A DNA stretch of 64,000 nucleotides from an uncultured Mycoplasmatales bacterium (lineage in GTDB: Bacteria; Bacillota_I; Bacilli_A; UBA3375). This document shows, piece after piece, positions 12,059-32,869 of this stretch; the stretch's first letter is position 1, and each line of letters begins with the position of its first letter. The position numbers were made by a program, and so were the translations under genes. Below the pieces are notes generated by a model, which worked only from the letters and a program-made list of their open reading frames with translations, was not told the origin of the DNA and did no database searches. The stretch lies in assembly GCA_937936465.1 (NCBI GenBank), contig CALDDH010000004.1:1-64000 (forward strand), given 5' to 3'.

Positions 12059-13045
12059 ATGAAAGATAAAAGAGAAGCATTAGAAACTGCACTTAAGAAT
12101 ATTAAGAAACAATATGGTGAGGAATCAATTATGATGATGGGTGATAAACCGCCTAAACAATTAGATGCAAGTTCATCTGGTTCATTATTATTAGATGATG
12201 CATTAGGTATTGGCGGTTACCCAAAAGGAAGGATTATTGAAATTTTTGGTCCTGAATCTTCTGGTAAAACAACACTTGCATTACATGCATTAGCTGAAGT
12301 GCAAAAAGCTGGAGGGGTTGCAGCAATTATTGATGCAGAAAATGCTTTGGATCCATACTATGCAAAAAATCTTGGTGTTCAAGTAGAAGATTTAATTATT
12401 TCACAACCTGATTCTGGTGAACAAGGTTTAGAGATAGCAGATACTCTAGTGAGGTCACAAGCTGTTAATATGATTGTTATTGATTCTGTTGCAGCTCTTG
12501 TTCCACAAGTCGAATTAAATGGTGAAATGTCAGATCAAACCATTGGAGTTCAGGCAAGATTAATGTCCAAAGCATTGAGGAAAATGGCAGGTGTAATTAA
12601 TCAATCTAATTGTATTGTAATTTTTATTAATCAATTAAGAGAAAAAGTTGGTGTTATGTTTGGTAACCCTGAAACGACAACAGGCGGAAGAGCATTGAAA
12701 TTTTATGCTTCAATTAGAATAGAAATTAGAAAATCAGAATTAATTAAAAATGGAACTGATATAGTTGGTTCAAAATCCAAAATAAAAGTTGTTAAAAACA
12801 AAGTTGCTCCACCGTTTAAACAAGCTGAAGTTGATATTATATATGGAACAGGTATTTCAAAAACAGGAGAAATAGTTGATTTAGCAACTGAAAAAAATAT
12901 TTTTAAAAAAGCTGGATCTTGGTATAGTTATAATGATGAAAAGATTGGTCAAGGTAGAGAAACAGTTAAGAAATTTTTATTAGAAAATAATGATATATAT
13001 GAAGAAGTTAAAAAGAAAATAAAAGATTTAATGAATGAAGGTTAA
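12059..13045 (+). CDS. recA: RecA recombinase
   Basis: A 328-residue recombinase, slightly shorter than usual because of a short C-terminal tail. GPESSGKTT (64-72) is Walker [16 protein letters not shown] is the Walker B region. [20 protein letters not shown] (L2 region) and [12 protein letters not shown] are standard RecA blocks. It drives homologous pairing and the SOS response. AAGGAGG lies seven bases before ATG. A terminator-like hairpin follows. Confidence 0.98.
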
Positions 13046-25264: not shown

Positions 25265-26581
25265 ATGGCAATGATGGAAGGGTTTTCTGAAAAAATTCAA
25301 AGTAGTTTAAATAATATTTCAAAAAAATCTAAAATAAGTGATGAGGATATTAAGAAAACAATTAAAGAAATCAGATTAATATTACTTGAAGCAGATGTTA
25401 ATTACCAAGTAGCTAAAGAATTTTGTAAAATAATAGAAGCTAAAATAGTTAAAGATGATGTATTAAAAGGATTAAATCCTTCAGAGCAAATTATTAAAAT
25501 AGTTAAAGATCAAATGATTGAGTTATTGGATGGTAATAATAAACTTGATTTAAAAGCAACTGATATAATTTTAATGGTTGGTCTTCAAGGTAGTGGGAAA
25601 ACAACAACAACAGGTAAACTAGCTAATTTCTTAAGAAAAAAACAAAACTTTAAAAAACCACTTGTTGTTGCATGTGATGTGTATAGACCGGCTGCAATTG
25701 ATCAGTTAATAACAATTGCAAAACAATTAAGTATTGATATTTATTATGAAAAAGATAATCAAAATGTATTAGAAATTGTTAAGAATGCTAATGCACATGC
25801 AATTGAAAATAACAATGACTTAATAATTTTAGATACAGCTGGAAGAATGCATGTTGAAACTGAATTGATGGATGAAATTAAAGATATTCAAACTAAATTC
25901 AATCCAAAAGAAACACTTTTAGTGCTGGATGGGACAATTGGACAAATGGCTGTTGATATTACTAATCAATTTCAAGAGTATGTTAATATTTCTGGTTTGA
26001 TCTTTAGTAAAATGGATGGTGATACAAGAGGTGGTGGACTTTTTTCAGTTAAAAAAGCAACTGGTATAGATATTAAATTTCTTGGTATTTCTGAGAAGAT
26101 GGATGGACTTGAAGAATTTAATCCTGAAAGAATAGTTGGAAGAATTTTAGGAATGGGTGATGTATTAGGGTTAATTGAAAAAGCTGAAGAATTAAATACT
26201 GAAGAAACTGAAGCAATGGCAAATAAGATGCTTGAAGGTAAATTTGATTTAAATGACTTTTTAAAGCAAATTAAAATGTTAAATAAAATGGGTGGCTTAA
26301 AAAATATTATGCGAATGATTCCAGGAGCTAAAAAAATCGATTTATCGCAATTTGATGAAAAAGAAATTAATAAAATGAAAGCAATTATAGAAGCGATGAC
26401 AATTCAGGAAAGAACTAAACCATCTGTCTTGAACGGCTCAAGAAGACAAAGAATAGCTAAGGGTAGTGGTGTAAAAGTACAAGATGTCAATAAATTAATA
26501 AAAGGATATGAAAACAGCAAGAAAATGATGAAACAATTCAAAGGAATGGATCCAAATAAAATGATGAACATGTTAAAATAA
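25265..26581 (+). CDS. ffh: Signal recognition particle protein Ffh
   Basis: A 438-residue SRP54 homologue. N domain about 1-95, G domain with VGLQGSGKTTTTGKLA (about 102-117), DTAGRMHVETELM and FSKMDGDTRGGGLFSV. The M domain from about 300 contains SGVKVQDVNKLIKGY and many methionines for signal-sequence and 4.5S RNA binding. Family length is normal. In most Bacillota rpsP, rimM and trmD follow; here a bacteriocin locus follows instead. Confidence 0.97.
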   Translation: MAMMEGFSEKIQSSLNNISKKSKISDEDIKKTIKEIRLILLEADVNYQVAKEFCKIIEAKIVKDDVLKGLNPSEQIIKIVKDQMIELLDGNNKLDLKATDIILMVGLQGSGKTTTTGKLANFLRKKQNFKKPLVVACDVYRPAAIDQLITIAKQLSIDIYYEKDNQNVLEIVKNANAHAIENNNDLIILDTAGRMHVETELMDEIKDIQTKFNPKETLLVLDGTIGQMAVDITNQFQEYVNISGLIFSKMDGDTRGGGLFSVKKATGIDIKFLGISEKMDGLEEFNPERIVGRILGMGDVLGLIEKAEELNTEETEAMANKMLEGKFDLNDFLKQIKMLNKMGGLKNIMRMIPGAKKIDLSQFDEKEINKMKAIIEAMTIQERTKPSVLNGSRRQRIAKGSGVKVQDVNKLIKGYENSKKMMKQFKGMDPNKMMNMLK

Positions 26582-26598
26582 AGAAATATAATTTACAC

Positions 26599-26627
26599 TT
26601 GCATAAGCTATGATTAAGTAGTATACT
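26599..26627 (+). promoter_or_regulatory. Sigma-A promoter of the bacteriocin locus
   Basis: TTGCAT (26599-26604), a 17-bp spacer, TATACT (26622-26627). A near-perfect AGGAGG follows at 26643-26648. The element resembles the ald promoter (shared GTATACTCTA and following TATAAA). Confidence 0.75.
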
Positions 26628-26652
26628 CTAACTATAAACATGAGGAGGATAT

Positions 26653-27009
26653 ATAAAAAAAATTGTAATAGTCATTTTATTAATTGGAATTATATTTTCA
26701 TTATCAATTAGTAATTTAGGTGCTACAGAGAACAATACACCAAAAGCTGTATATTGGTCACCGGCAATAACAAAATATTCACACGGGGAATATTGGACAT
26801 ATGATTTAACACATGCTTCAGTATCAAGTTTCATTTCAAATGAATCATCATATGCTCAAGCAGGAGCGTATGTGGAAGTAGCCAGTGAAGATACAGCCGG
26901 TCATTTACAATTAACACACGATGAAAGTAATTCTGGAACTGCTTATACTTATGTTTCATATCAAGGCTATAATTCACGTGAATCATGGCAAAAAACTGAT
27001 GTTAATTAG
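26653..27009 (+). CDS. Lactococcin 972-like secreted bacteriocin precursor, apparent AUA start
   Basis: An open frame of 118 codons. The first residues are (M)KKIVIVILLIGIIFSLSISN, a standard signal peptide with probable cleavage near residue 24. The mature part has SHGEYWTYDL, SVSSFISNESSYAQAGAYVE and TAYTYVSYQGYNSRESW, which matches the lactococcin 972 pattern of an N-terminal 'G.W.Y', a 'S.Y' then 'A.AG.(W/Y)V/A.A' core and an aromatic C-terminus without cysteines. No ATG, GTG or TTG lies between the in-frame TGA at 26641 and the signal peptide. ATA at 26653 is four bases after AGGAGG, exactly the spacing used for ATG in ald, ldh and plsX. The following genes are the family's usual exporter/immunity partners. 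Lactococcin 972 itself blocks septum formation by binding lipid II. It may instead be a start-lost pseudogene, or an 8-A run may hide a frameshift from ATG 26640. Confidence 0.7.
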   Translation: MKKIVIVILLIGIIFSLSISNLGATENNTPKAVYWSPAITKYSHGEYWTYDLTHASVSSFISNESSYAQAGAYVEVASEDTAGHLQLTHDESNSGTAYTYVSYQGYNSRESWQKTDVN

Positions 27010-27036
27010 AATTCAAATATTTGAATTCTTTTTTTA
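27009..27036 (+). terminator. Perfect 20-base palindrome plus T run between bacteriocin and export genes
   Basis: GAATTCAAATATTTGAATTC (27009-27028) is followed by a run of Ts. It should end most transcripts after the peptide gene and let a fraction reach the membrane-protein and ABC genes. Confidence 0.85.
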
Positions 27037-27053
27037 TAAAAGAGAGGGATGAT

Positions 27054-28835
27054 ATGAAAGAAAAGATTATAATTATTATAACAATCTTATTTTTTTGTTT
27101 TTTAAGTTTCAATATTTTCAGACAACTTGAATTTAATATTAATTATCCTGATGAATCCTATAAAATCCAAGTAGAACAAAATATTGATGTTAATGCTGAG
27201 CAAGTGAAAACTTATTTAGAGGACAATCAAATGCTTATTTACAGGGAGCTTGAAAAAATTCCTTTTTTCTTAACTAATGCAGATCAGTTTAATAAAATGA
27301 TCTATCCTAAAGAAGAAAATATTTATGATTATATCGCACGTGAAGATAATGCTGGAGTTTATATTGTTGATATGAATAATGCATTAATTACTGTGGATCA
27401 ATTAGAAAGTGAGATTGAAAATAATTTTTCAGTTAACTTCAACGTAGGTGGGATAGTAGATCCCGGCTTTAATCAAATAATGCGCATAAAAACATTGTTA
27501 GTATACATTGGATTAATAATCTTATTAATCATGCAAATATTACTCAATATTAATAATAAGAAAAATGAGTTATTTATTAAATATGTTAATGGTTGGAACG
27601 AATCTAAAATAATCAAACAAGATGCAAAAAGATTATGTTATTTATTTTCAATCAGCTATATAATTTTCATGTTAATCTTGACAACCTATTATGGATATTT
27701 AACATACATATTATTACTTTTAATAATCTTTACATTACTGATTATTAACTTAGTTATTTATGTTTTAGTCTATATAGTGTATAAGGCTGATAGAAGAGCT
27801 ATTTTTAAAAATAAATTAAAGATTGGAAAACCTAAGATTATATTAACACAAGTAGTCACATTAGTGTTAACAGTAATTGTTGTGATCTTCAGTGTTAACA
27901 TGTTAATTACAAGTGTTTTAACAATATCATATACTACTAGAGATACAATAGGATTAAATAAAAATAAAGAAAGCTTAAATTCATATTTATATGCAACATC
28001 ACAATTAGATGTATTAACTGAAAAAGATTTAATTGAGTATAACAAGCAAATGCGAGAAATTGGTGCATTTGTGTTTGGTGTTTTAGAAAGTGATACATTT
28101 GGAAAGTATATATTAAGTGAATTAAATTATATTGACGACTTAATGCAAACAGATGTAGATATACCCGCTAATTCATTATTAGTGCCAATTGAAGATAAGG
28201 AAGAATTTGAAAAAGATTCACAAGGGTGCCTTGAATTTGATTGCACTAATCTAATTTACTATGAGCAAGACATTACAACATCAACTTTTGAACAAGGTTT
28301 TAGTACACTTGATAATCCAATTATCCAATTACAAGATGGTGGAACTTCAACATCATTTATTATACCTGGATACAGTGAAGATAATGGGAAAGAAGCAGAG
28401 GTTGATCAAATTGTAGCTAATACTGTGATGGATTCAAATTATAGTGGAGGATTGCAAGTTAAAACATATGATGATTTTAAAGCAATTAATCTTAGAGCAT
28501 TAATAAGTGATATTATGAGGTTAGTTGGATCGATTATCTTGATGTTTATATTGATTTATTTAATTAATAGTGTTTATATAAGAAGATATAATCAAATTAA
28601 TCAAGAAAAGATTTTTGCTTTAAAAGTCAATGGTTATAAGTTAAGAGCAATATATAAGGAAGTTTTAATCAATTATTTGATTTGTTATTTAATTAACATA
28701 TTAATTATTGTAACTTTTTCTCAAAGTATGACATTAGTTAAATTTATTATAATTTCAGTTACATATTTATTAGTTATTATAATTATTAATAATAATTTTA
28801 AAAGTTATTTAAAACTAATATATAAAAATAAATGA
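27054..28835 (+). CDS. Bacteriocin-associated integral membrane protein (lactococcin 972 group)
   Basis: A 593-residue protein. It has an N-terminal span (about 3-22), a ~130-residue outside domain, a membrane block (about 148-168, 195-240, 265-295), a second outside domain (about 295-475) and three C-terminal spans (about 490-590). This arrangement fits the 'bacteriocin-associated integral membrane (putative immunity)' family, DUF1430-like, that accompanies lactococcin 972 peptides, and it is organised like an FtsX/MacB-type permease. I chose ATG 27054 (GAGAGGG upstream) over an earlier in-frame TTG that lies in the terminator hairpin. It probably pairs with the ATPase encoded 9 bases downstream. 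Confidence 0.82.
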   Translation: MKEKIIIIITILFFCFLSFNIFRQLEFNINYPDESYKIQVEQNIDVNAEQVKTYLEDNQMLIYRELEKIPFFLTNADQFNKMIYPKEENIYDYIAREDNAGVYIVDMNNALITVDQLESEIENNFSVNFNVGGIVDPGFNQIMRIKTLLVYIGLIILLIMQILLNINNKKNELFIKYVNGWNESKIIKQDAKRLCYLFSISYIIFMLILTTYYGYLTYILLLLIIFTLLIINLVIYVLVYIVYKADRRAIFKNKLKIGKPKIILTQVVTLVLTVIVVIFSVNMLITSVLTISYTTRDTIGLNKNKESLNSYLYATSQLDVLTEKDLIEYNKQMREIGAFVFGVLESDTFGKYILSELNYIDDLMQTDVDIPANSLLVPIEDKEEFEKDSQGCLEFDCTNLIYYEQDITTSTFEQGFSTLDNPIIQLQDGGTSTSFIIPGYSEDNGKEAEVDQIVANTVMDSNYSGGLQVKTYDDFKAINLRALISDIMRLVGSIILMFILIYLINSVYIRRYNQINQEKIFALKVNGYKLRAIYKEVLINYLICYLINILIIVTFSQSMTLVKFIIISVTYLLVIIIINNNFKSYLKLIYKNK

Positions 28836-28844
28836 AGGAGATAA

Positions 28845-29516
28845 ATGCTTAAAATAGTTGATGGAAGTAAATCGTATGACCAAGTTGTATGGAAAAATGT
28901 AAATATAAATTTTGAAAAAAATAAAGTATACGTTATAAGTGGTGAAAGTGGATCAGGTAAAACAACTCTTTTAAACATATTAGCTAATTTTGAACAATTA
29001 GATGATGGTCAAGTTTTCTTGGGTGATCAGATTTATCAAAAGCCATTTAGTAATAATAAGTTATATCGAAAAGATATTTCAATTGTCTTTCAAGACTATG
29101 CATTAATAAATAATCAAACTGTGTTAGATAATTTATTAATAGCCTTAGAATATGTTAATCTAAGTAATAAAGAAAAAAAAGAACTAATTATTGAAGAATT
29201 AATAAAAATCGGTTTAGCTAATTTAGAAAATAAAAAAGTAGCAACTTTAAGTGGAGGTCAACGGCAAAGAGTTGGATTACTACGTGCTAAGATTAAACCT
29301 TCTAAAGTTATTTTATTAGATGAACCAACTGGGAATCTTGATCAAAAAAATGTTCAATTAATTAAAGACTTAATAACCGAGTTGGCAGTAGATCACACAA
29401 TAATAGTCATAACACATGATTTATCATATTTAGAAATTGCAGATTTTCATTTGGAAATAAAAGATCAATCAATTAACAATCAAAATATTGATATTAACAA
29501 TGAACCACTAAAATAA
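28845..29516 (+). CDS. ABC transporter ATP-binding protein, lactococcin 972 group exporter/immunity
   Basis: A 223-residue ABC ATPase of the LolD/MacB type. SGESGSGKTTLLNILANFEQ (about 31-50) is Walker A, VFQDYALI the Q-loop, ATLSGGQRQRVGLLRAKI the signature, and VILLDEPTGNLD Walker B. The H-loop is ITHDLS. It works with the preceding membrane protein. In the family this pair is thought to give immunity and/or export; which one cannot be told from sequence. AAGGAG precedes ATG. Confidence 0.9.
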   Translation: MLKIVDGSKSYDQVVWKNVNINFEKNKVYVISGESGSGKTTLLNILANFEQLDDGQVFLGDQIYQKPFSNNKLYRKDISIVFQDYALINNQTVLDNLLIALEYVNLSNKEKKELIIEELIKIGLANLENKKVATLSGGQRQRVGLLRAKIKPSKVILLDEPTGNLDQKNVQLIKDLITELAVDHTIIVITHDLSYLEIADFHLEIKDQSINNQNIDINNEPLK

Positions 29517-29657: not shown

Positions 29658-30005
29658 ATGAGAAATCAATTAATAGAATTAGTTACAAAAAATCAATTGA
29701 AAACAGATGTTGAACCATTTAAAGTTGGAGATACTGTTGCAGTTGGTGTTAAGATAGTAGAAGGTGAGAAATCAAGAATTCAAAAATTTGAAGGAGTTGT
29801 TATTTCTCAAAAGGGATCAGGTATTCAAATGAATGTTACTGTTCGTAAAATTTCAAATGGAATTGGAGTAGAAAGAACTTTCCCAGTTAACTCACCAAAC
29901 ATTACAGAAATTAAAGTTACAAGAAAAGGTAAAGTAAGACGTGCTAAATTATATTACTTACGTGAATTAAGTGGTAAATCAGCAAGAATTAAAGAAAGAA
30001 TATAA
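29658..30005 (+). CDS. rplS: 50S ribosomal protein L19
   Basis: A 115-residue ribosomal protein at the 30S-50S interface. [37 protein letters not shown] and [13 protein letters not shown] are invariant L19 blocks, and [20 protein letters not shown] is the C-terminus. It is transcribed alone, between its leader and a terminator. Confidence 0.98.
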
Positions 30006-30943: not shown

Positions 30944-31562
30944 AGATATTTCACAGTATAATCAGAAAAATAAATATGAAAAAAAATATTTAGATCAAGG
31001 TTACAAATATATTGCAGGTATAGATGAAGTTGGTCGAGGTCCACTGGCAGGGCGTGTATACTGTGCAGTTGTTATATTAAATCCTGATATACCAATATAT
31101 GGTTTGAAAGATTCAAAGAAATTATCTAAAATAAAAATTAATATACTACAGGAACAAATTAAAAAGAATTGTTTAGATTATGCTATTAGTTATTGTGAGG
31201 TTCAAACAATTGATAAAATTGGAATTAAAAATGCTGTTATATTAGCTATGAAAAAGGCAGTCAATAAATTGAAAATAAGGCCTAATATTGTATTAGTAGA
31301 TTATGAAAAAGTTGATTTTAATGAATTAGAAAGCATAGCAATAAAGCATGGTGATGATCTATCTAATTCAATTGCAGCTGCTTCGATTATTGCAAAATAT
31401 GAGCGAGATAAATATATGTTTAAAAAAAGTCTTAAATATCCTGAATATGGATTTGAAACAAATGTTGGATATGGAACTAAAAAGCATTTGGAAGCAATAA
31501 AAGTTCATGGACCAATCAAAAAACTTCATCGTTTTTCATTTAAACCAATGCGGGAGGAATAA
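30936..31562 (+). CDS. rnhB: Ribonuclease HII
   Basis: A 208-residue enzyme removing ribonucleotides and RNA primers from RNA:DNA hybrids. AGIDEVGRGPLAG holds the catalytic Asp-Glu, GLKDSKKLSK follows, and SIAAASIIAKYERDKYM is the third block. YPEYGFETNVGYGTKKHLEA is the C-terminal signature. Family length is normal. It is translationally coupled to rbgA. Confidence 0.96.
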   Translation: MSKDISQYNQKNKYEKKYLDQGYKYIAGIDEVGRGPLAGRVYCAVVILNPDIPIYGLKDSKKLSKIKINILQEQIKKNCLDYAISYCEVQTIDKIGIKNAVILAMKKAVNKLKIRPNIVLVDYEKVDFNELESIAIKHGDDLSNSIAAASIIAKYERDKYMFKKSLKYPEYGFETNVGYGTKKHLEAIKVHGPIKKLHRFSFKPMREE

Positions 31563-31563
31563 A

Positions 31564-32421
31564 GTGAAATATTTAATATCAATAATAATTATCTCAATAT
31601 TTATAATAATATTATTTACAACTGAGTATACACAAACAGAAATAGAAACAATGAAAATCTCAACAAATGAAATTGATAATATATCAATTGATGTTGAGAA
31701 ATTAGAAGTAAATATTGCAGCAACTGAACAAGATTATATTACGGTTGAACATATATTTAATCAAAAAAACCAAAAAAATATTAAGCTTTATTCAAATATA
31801 GATGATAAAACATTATATATTTCTGATTATATTGAAAGAGAAAAAAAAATAATTAGTCCAAAAGAAATTTTAAATATTTATATTCCTAAAAATTTTAGAC
31901 TAGATAATTTACATATTAATTTAAAATCTGGTAAAATTAAAGTTAATAATATTAATATAAATGATTTAATAATTACTACTAACCAGGCATCTATAAATCT
32001 TAATAACTTAAATGCAAAAAATATATCAATTTCTAATAATATTGGAAGCAATAAATTAACAAATTTAAAAACAGAGACACTTGCTGTTGGTGGCAATGAA
32101 ATGTATTTAGAAATCACTAATTTAATTGCTAAAAAGAATGTAATTAATGCAGAAGGTAGCAGTGAAATTCATTTGACAAATACAATTTCTGATATACTGA
32201 ATATTTATGCACCAAAAGGGAATTTGTTTTTAGAAGTTCAATCAAATTTAAATTATGAAATTTATACAAGTGAAATTATTGAAAGTAAATACTTTGAATA
32301 TAATAATAATAGTTATCGATATATTGGTGATGAAAAACTTAAAAGTTCGGAAATAATAAATATTAATCAAATTGATGAAGTTAATATAATAATGAATTCT
32401 AAGGAGACTAATGAAAAATGA
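31564..32421 (+). CDS. Membrane-anchored DUF4097-like beta-repeat protein
   Basis: A 285-residue protein from a GTG start at 31564, behind GGGAGG. One N-terminal anchor (about 3-21) is followed by an extracytoplasmic domain of repeated short beta-strands (alternating I/L/N patterns such as KIKVNNININDLIITTNQAS), typical of the right-handed helix in DUF4097/putative adhesin proteins. In Bacillota these often accompany membrane-stress regulators such as LiaG. It is followed with a 10-base overlap by a MarR-type regulator gene. Function is not known. Confidence 0.65.
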   Translation: MKYLISIIIISIFIIILFTTEYTQTEIETMKISTNEIDNISIDVEKLEVNIAATEQDYITVEHIFNQKNQKNIKLYSNIDDKTLYISDYIEREKKIISPKEILNIYIPKNFRLDNLHINLKSGKIKVNNININDLIITTNQASINLNNLNAKNISISNNIGSNKLTNLKTETLAVGGNEMYLEITNLIAKKNVINAEGSSEIHLTNTISDILNIYAPKGNLFLEVQSNLNYEIYTSEIIESKYFEYNNNSYRYIGDEKLKSSEIININQIDEVNIIMNSKETNEK

Positions 32422-32869
32422 ACTGATTGAAAACGAAAATATTAACGATCACTTTGTAGAAATTTTTAATTTAATCTTAGTTTTAGAAGAAAAATCATTG
32501 AAAAAAAAGGGAATTATTGGTTTATCATTAGTAGAAATTCATGTGATTGAAGCAGTTATTAAGCTTGGGTCAGAAGCAACAATGAAAACTGTAGCTAAAG
32601 AACTTAAGATATCATTAAGTAGTTTAAGTGTTTCAACAAATGTACTTATTAAAAAAGGCTATTTAATTAAAATACCATCTAAGTTAGATAAAAGGGTAAG
32701 GCATTTAAAAGAAACATCAAAAAGTTTAGAAATTAATAAGATACATGTTCAATGGCATAAGGAATTTGTTGATAATGCGTTAATTAATTTTGATAATGAA
32801 CAAAGAACAATATTACTAGGCTTATTAAAAAATTTAAATAATTATTTACAAATAAATCTTGATCAATAG
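32411..32869 (+). CDS. MarR-family transcriptional regulator
   Basis: A 152-residue winged-helix protein. The recognition part runs through ATMKTVAKELKISLSSLSVS and TNVLIKKGYLIKIPSKLDKR, with the wing basic residues KRVRHLKET. This layout is typical of MarR. A fatty-acid regulator of the FabT type is possible but not shown. It overlaps the upstream DUF4097-like gene and precedes rmuC by 12 bases, so it may control this operon. Confidence 0.78.
   Translation: MKNELIENENINDHFVEIFNLILVLEEKSLKKKGIIGLSLVEIHVIEAVIKLGSEATMKTVAKELKISLSSLSVSTNVLIKKGYLIKIPSKLDKRVRHLKETSKSLEINKIHVQWHKEFVDNALINFDNEQRTILLGLLKNLNNYLQINLDQ

Follow-up and report, generated by a model that had tools for sequence, protein, structure and literature searches.

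Between ffh (25265-26581) and rplS (29658-30005) of the window, by which we mean the whole 64,000-nt stretch of DNA analysed, lies a three-gene cassette with all genes on the plus strand and the following features.

26599..26627, plus strand: promoter-like site TTGCAT-N17-TATACT, a consensus match only, 17 nt past the ffh stop
26643..26648, plus strand: ribosome-binding site AGGAGG, 4 nt ahead of the start codon
26653..27010, plus strand: secreted peptide gene of 118 codons, signal peptide at about residues 1-24, no Cys, opening with ATA
27008..27035, plus strand: AT-rich hairpin AGAATTCAAATATTTGAATTCT, then a T run, between the peptide gene and that of the membrane protein
27054..28835, plus strand: membrane protein gene, ATG 27054 to TGA 28835, 593 aa with 8 predicted transmembrane (TM) segments
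28845..29516, plus strand: ABC ATPase gene, 223 aa with Walker A, signature and Walker B motifs

The original prediction had placed a peptide, a membrane protein and an ATPase in this order between ffh and rplS; the coordinates of the three genes hold, and the position is borne out by NCBIfam equivalogs, which back the identities of ffh, rplS and ylqF/rbgA. Promoter-like sites in this AT-rich stretch are not more frequent than in shuffles. For the hairpin at 27008..27035, the centroid structure has a 9-bp stem, with an MFE of -8.7 kcal/mol and a modest z of -1.9, and together with its T run it is a possible weak terminator or attenuator between the peptide and transporter genes.

Comparison of the ffh-rplS interval among related genomes showed that it is filled by rpsP-khpA-rimM-trmD in class member G112, the same interval that the cassette occupies in the host. 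In the nearest relative (G001) ffh sits in a different context, and hence replacement and rearrangement are indistinguishable as origins of the present arrangement. Transposition into the ffh-rplS gap was also considered and set aside as unprovable, given the differing ffh context in G001 and the lack of an IS next to the window cassette. IS transposase genes (L007:1-964 and L055:6346-7775) do adjoin other lactococcin-972-type cassettes, in the host genome and in G013, which is consistent with mobility. The Ffh gene of the nearest relative (L061; G001:C78:5933-7237) carries an in-frame TAA, which probably reflects either a broken gene or an error of assembly. We found no rpsP (ribosomal protein S16, PF00886) in the host assembly (987 kb, 25 contigs, 87% complete), while the nearest relative has one, and the missing gene may simply lie in absent sequence.

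The 593-aa protein consists of one TM segment, ∼125 outside residues, four TM segments, ∼205 outside residues and three TM segments, and the same 8-TM layout with two ectodomains is found in membrane proteins of lactococcin 972 loci. TIGR01654, proposed as a check of this protein, did not match it; permeases at confirmed loci of the host genome also stay under the cut-off of that model (25-120 of 189 bits). In profile comparison with hhalign, the protein matched a profile of eight membrane proteins from true lactococcin 972 loci with a probability of 95% and an E-value of 3.5e-8, colinearly over columns 1-584, and with the paralogue at C2 added the match reached 3.8e-12. Among the controls, the best of six block shuffles gave 0.011 and FtsX 0.018, a fused ABC-permease likewise stayed far below, and reversed and unrelated membrane proteins did not align. 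The sequence alone gave weak partial matches only among the 395 class genomes, and no relatives among genome contigs and plasmids. A low-confidence model (pLDDT 48) had as its top five Foldseek neighbours BceB, 5xu1_M, YbbP and MacB twice, with E-values of 3e-3 at best and low TM-scores; 5xu1_M is a MacB-like pneumococcal permease. By profile-level homology, we presume the 593-aa protein to be a lactococcin-972-type immunity permease.

The ATPase carries GESGSGKTT as Walker A, LSGGQ as signature and VILLDEP as Walker B. Its best NCBIfam family is L_ocin_972_ABC (TIGR03608) with 189.5 bits, 45 bits ahead of FtsE (144.4 bits), so that the proposed L_ocin_972 type stands as the closest family but falls short of the curated cut-off of 254.85. 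It is 44% identical to the ATPase of the C3 locus in the same genome, which bears a PF09683 peptide. Both the ABC and the permease trees are poorly resolved and the locus could not be placed in them; the window and C2 pair with support of 93/89, flagged as a possible long-branch join. That the ABC tree does not separate the window ATPase from FtsE, and that TIGR01654 passes over the membrane protein, would suit a pair forming some unrelated envelope transporter, of the lipoprotein or FtsEX-like kind, with the small ORF as a mere neighbour. We regard this as improbable, since the full-length match to lactococcin 972 permeases lies far above those of FtsX, the fused ABC-permease and shuffles, and the order peptide-permease-ATPase recurs at several host loci.

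Direct reading of the sequence confirmed the predicted signal-peptide-bearing, cysteine-free small protein, with a K-K-hydrophobic signal peptide, but its frame has no standard start codon. In a simulated order-2 Markov sequence of 2 Mb with matching composition, open frames of at least 118 codons turned up about once per Mb, so that 0.0005 of them would be expected in the interval; chance does not account for the 118-aa ORF. Its family is another matter. The lactococcin 972 residue pattern ascribed to it lies within shuffle noise: in hhalign against the lactococcin 972 family the mature peptide scored 12.1 versus 16.7 for the best shuffle, and its best single comparison with the family gave 16.2 versus null maxima up to 19.3. 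PF09683 did not match at E<=10 and the peptide was absent from the genome-wide matches of this model; NCBIfam models gave no match, and it escaped a profile built on eight confirmed lactococcin 972 members of the host genome and the class. A likeness of the full-length peptide to that of C3 (hhalign E 1e-4) was discarded, because the signal peptide accounts for it and nothing remains once this is removed. An ARC6-like_IMS match in Pfam (E 0.017, below cut-off) with an echo in the PDB (E 0.9) was taken as chance, and no relatives of the peptide turned up in genome contigs and plasmids. Structure prediction by AlphaFold2 from the single sequence, which had been suggested for this peptide, gave a mean pLDDT of 39.4, too low to inform on a beta-sandwich fold. 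Small size, a Sec signal and lack of cysteine are all found in the window peptide, but they do not discriminate because several confirmed members here contain Cys. As far as sequence comparison goes, the window peptide is not fileable as a member of the lactococcin 972 family. The lack of an HMM match for the 118-residue peptide had been named beforehand as the refuting outcome, and with no PF09683 match and a mature part no better than shuffles the peptide part of the original prediction falls; judged by these homologies, only the transporter half deserves the lactococcin-972 label.

Similar cassettes are found elsewhere in the host genome. Three host peptides, at C3, C9 and C17, score over the PF09683 cut-off and lie beside such transporters, and for the C3 peptide there is a match to 2lgn, the solved chain of lactococcin 972; at C17 the peptide gene comes after the ATPase. 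Two further peptides, at C1 and C9:24 kb, go unrecognised by Pfam and lie ahead of such transporters. With the window locus, the host has at least seven cassettes, of which six are peptide-bearing and one is a transporter pair without a peptide. This last pair (L012:429-2802; G000:C2) is related to that of the window, has recN 33 bp upstream and is possibly orphan immunity. Another cassette (L005:5276-8181; G000:C9, 5.3-8.2 kb) pairs an intact PF09683 peptide with a membrane gene that a TGA interrupts. Of the 395 class genomes, five have PF09683, the host alone more than once; the cassette profile was found in 23 of 395, with scoring limited to three candidates per genome. An adjacent small signal-bearing peptide was present at 18 of the 30 cassette loci read, and 11 of these 18 peptides, among them that of the window, fail to reach the PF09683 cut-off; the 30 loci were counted by eye from mechanical ORF lists, and the figures are approximate. 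It is the peptide that varies among cassettes.

We consider it probable that the locus is a divergent lactococcin-972-type bacteriocin cassette, encoding a secreted antibacterial peptide and an ABC immunity transporter of BceAB/MacB type. Toxicity, target and immunity mechanism are inferred. The first gene would yield a small protein that is exported by Sec and acts outside the cell, most likely on the envelope of neighbouring bacteria; by analogy with the lactococcin 972 family, lipid II may be its target. The second and third genes would form one ABC transporter, in which two copies of the ATPase drive an 8-TM permease that appears to consist of two MacB/FtsX-like halves fused together and has two extracellular domains. 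Such a transporter would most likely guard the producer by dislodging the peptide from its target at the cell surface, in the way BceAB deals with bacitracin. Target protection is favoured over export because the peptide has its own Sec signal.

The cassette resembles the lactococcin 972 operon (lcn972-orf2-orf3; PF09683/TIGR01654/TIGR03608) in its secreted Cys-free leading peptide, its gene order on one strand, its large permease with two transmembrane blocks and its LolD-like ATPase. It differs in that the peptide is not PF09683, the permease is undetected by TIGR01654, the ATPase is below the TIGR03608 cut-off, the peptide frame opens with ATA and a hairpin separates the peptide and permease genes. 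In Lactococcus lactis, orf2-orf3 are putative immunity genes and the cluster aids plasmid maintenance through killing of segregants (PMC4055356). For no Lcn972 system has a function of the transporter pair yet been demonstrated (PMC11796350). Streptococcin B, encoded by scbABC, is likewise a toxin-permease-ATPase three-gene operon with Sec export of the peptide; Sec is the presumed exit of Lcn972-type peptides, and streptococcin B needs no exporter of its own, leaving the cell without ComAB or BlpAB (PMC11796350). ScbA is a recognised Lcn972 member under competence control, whereas such regulation was not seen for the window cassette.

Type VII ABC transporters such as BceAB and YsaDCB share with the window pair a single fused permease with an extracellular domain and an ATPase, together with target protection in the lipid II cycle as the proposed mode of action, and BceAB transporters appear to work by target protection (PMC7038271). 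The Bce-like YsaDCB confers fivefold resistance to Lcn972 and bacitracin, although for Lcn972 the authors suspected an indirect route (PMC7438565). YsaD is a secreted lactococcal peptide encoded with ysaCB, in the same operon, and tunes signalling (PMC7438565). A secreted peptide co-encoded with a Bce-like transporter thus has a precedent, and the window peptide might similarly not be a toxin but assist, or signal for, a detoxification transporter of Bce-like type, a reading in keeping with BceB and MacB-like permeases as top structural neighbours and with a peptide that lacks toxin-family similarity. This seems to us rather unlikely: no two-component system or histidine kinase partner was found near the window locus, the permease has two extracellular domains and 8 TM segments, its closest profile is that of permeases beside confirmed Lcn972 peptides, and the peptides next to such cassettes show the hypervariability that one expects of toxins.

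The peptide frame has no ATG, GTG or TTG start, so that an ordinary ORF list omits the gene; its first codon, at 26653, is ATA, followed by AAA AAA ATT. In alignment, seven other genes for secreted peptides in the host genome have ATG where this one has ATA, and at loci C3 and C9b the same AGGAGG occurs with the same 4-nt spacing. Slippage of the frame from ATG 26640 across an A8 run was rejected, since the Shine–Dalgarno sequence would then be translated and ATA 26653 matches the sister starts exactly. With ATA in place of ATG, the window peptide is weakly translated, silenced or mis-assembled; owing to this start codon it is probably little translated or silenced, and this copy of the cassette may now serve mainly for immunity. 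A serious alternative for this copy, though we hold it less probable than the main reading, is that the toxin gene has decayed or been silenced, ATG having turned into ATA, and that the transporter pair survives as immunity against toxin-making relatives. Besides the alignment of ATA with the sister ATG codons, decay is seen in this genome in the orphan pair at C2 and the C9 membrane gene broken by TGA, and D39-like pneumococci keep an scb locus without a functional bacteriocin (PMC11796350), as the host may with the window cassette. Against decay, the 118-codon frame is otherwise intact, as are the ribosome-binding site and its spacing, AUA can initiate translation at low level, and one assembly error would look identical.

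Beyond the single locus, we tentatively suggest, at odds that we put below even, that the lactococcin-972 pair is a general immunity module with a freely swapped toxin slot, of which the window peptide would be one of several new types, possibly with new folds. If so, the small host genome would hold an arsenal of seven such modules. Peptides beside the transporter pair in the sampled class are mostly missed by the Pfam model, so that a search for unknown secreted bacteriocins is better begun from the pair than from the peptide family, and gene callers also miss the window peptide because of its ATA start. The seven divergent pairs in one genome, intact, orphaned and broken, are a natural set for specificity tests. 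The original prediction was right on the type and position of the locus, to which the start codon and the genome-wide set of cassettes are added here.

Several other features accompany these cassettes. A 390-bp duplication (L005:8134-8518 and 12469-12858; G000:C9), 90% identical, covers the last part of a DHFR/RibD-like gene, then a promoter, an RBS and the start of two different secreted-peptide genes, which suggests reuse of leader and promoter with a new peptide behind. A CRISPR-like array of five 36-nt repeats, GTTTTAGTCCCCTTCGTTTTTGGGGTCATCTATATC, with ∼30-nt spacers (L010:10573-10877; G000:C9 ∼24.57-24.88 kb) lies directly upstream of a lactococcin-972-type cassette. In two such cassettes a signal peptidase I gene is immediately 3′ of the ATPase (L010:6914-7363, G000:C9; L052:2942-3367, G001:C207). 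Secreted proteins of 121 and 141 aa, unknown to Pfam, lie beside other ABC exporters, namely a fused ABC-permease and an ABC-2 set (L013:4928-7465, G000:C4 ∼132.9-135.5 kb; L005:8662-12519, G000:C9).

The host had been said to keep murC and mreCD. MurC is over its cut-off, and genes for MurF and Ddl and FtsW/RodA-like genes are present; the MreC-like gene has support below its cut-off, and for mreD there was no NCBIfam match at 1e-15. The sole match to the MraY/WecA superfamily (PF00953) in the 87% complete assembly has a WecA/TagO-like score, not that of MraY, and with 13% of the genome absent from the assembly we predict that the lipid II pathway is likely complete. TGA terminates 9 of the 55 ORFs of the window, and the host is thus not on genetic code 4. 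Further along the window, downstream of rnhB, a DUF4097 toastrack protein is followed by a MarR-type regulator (31507-32869).
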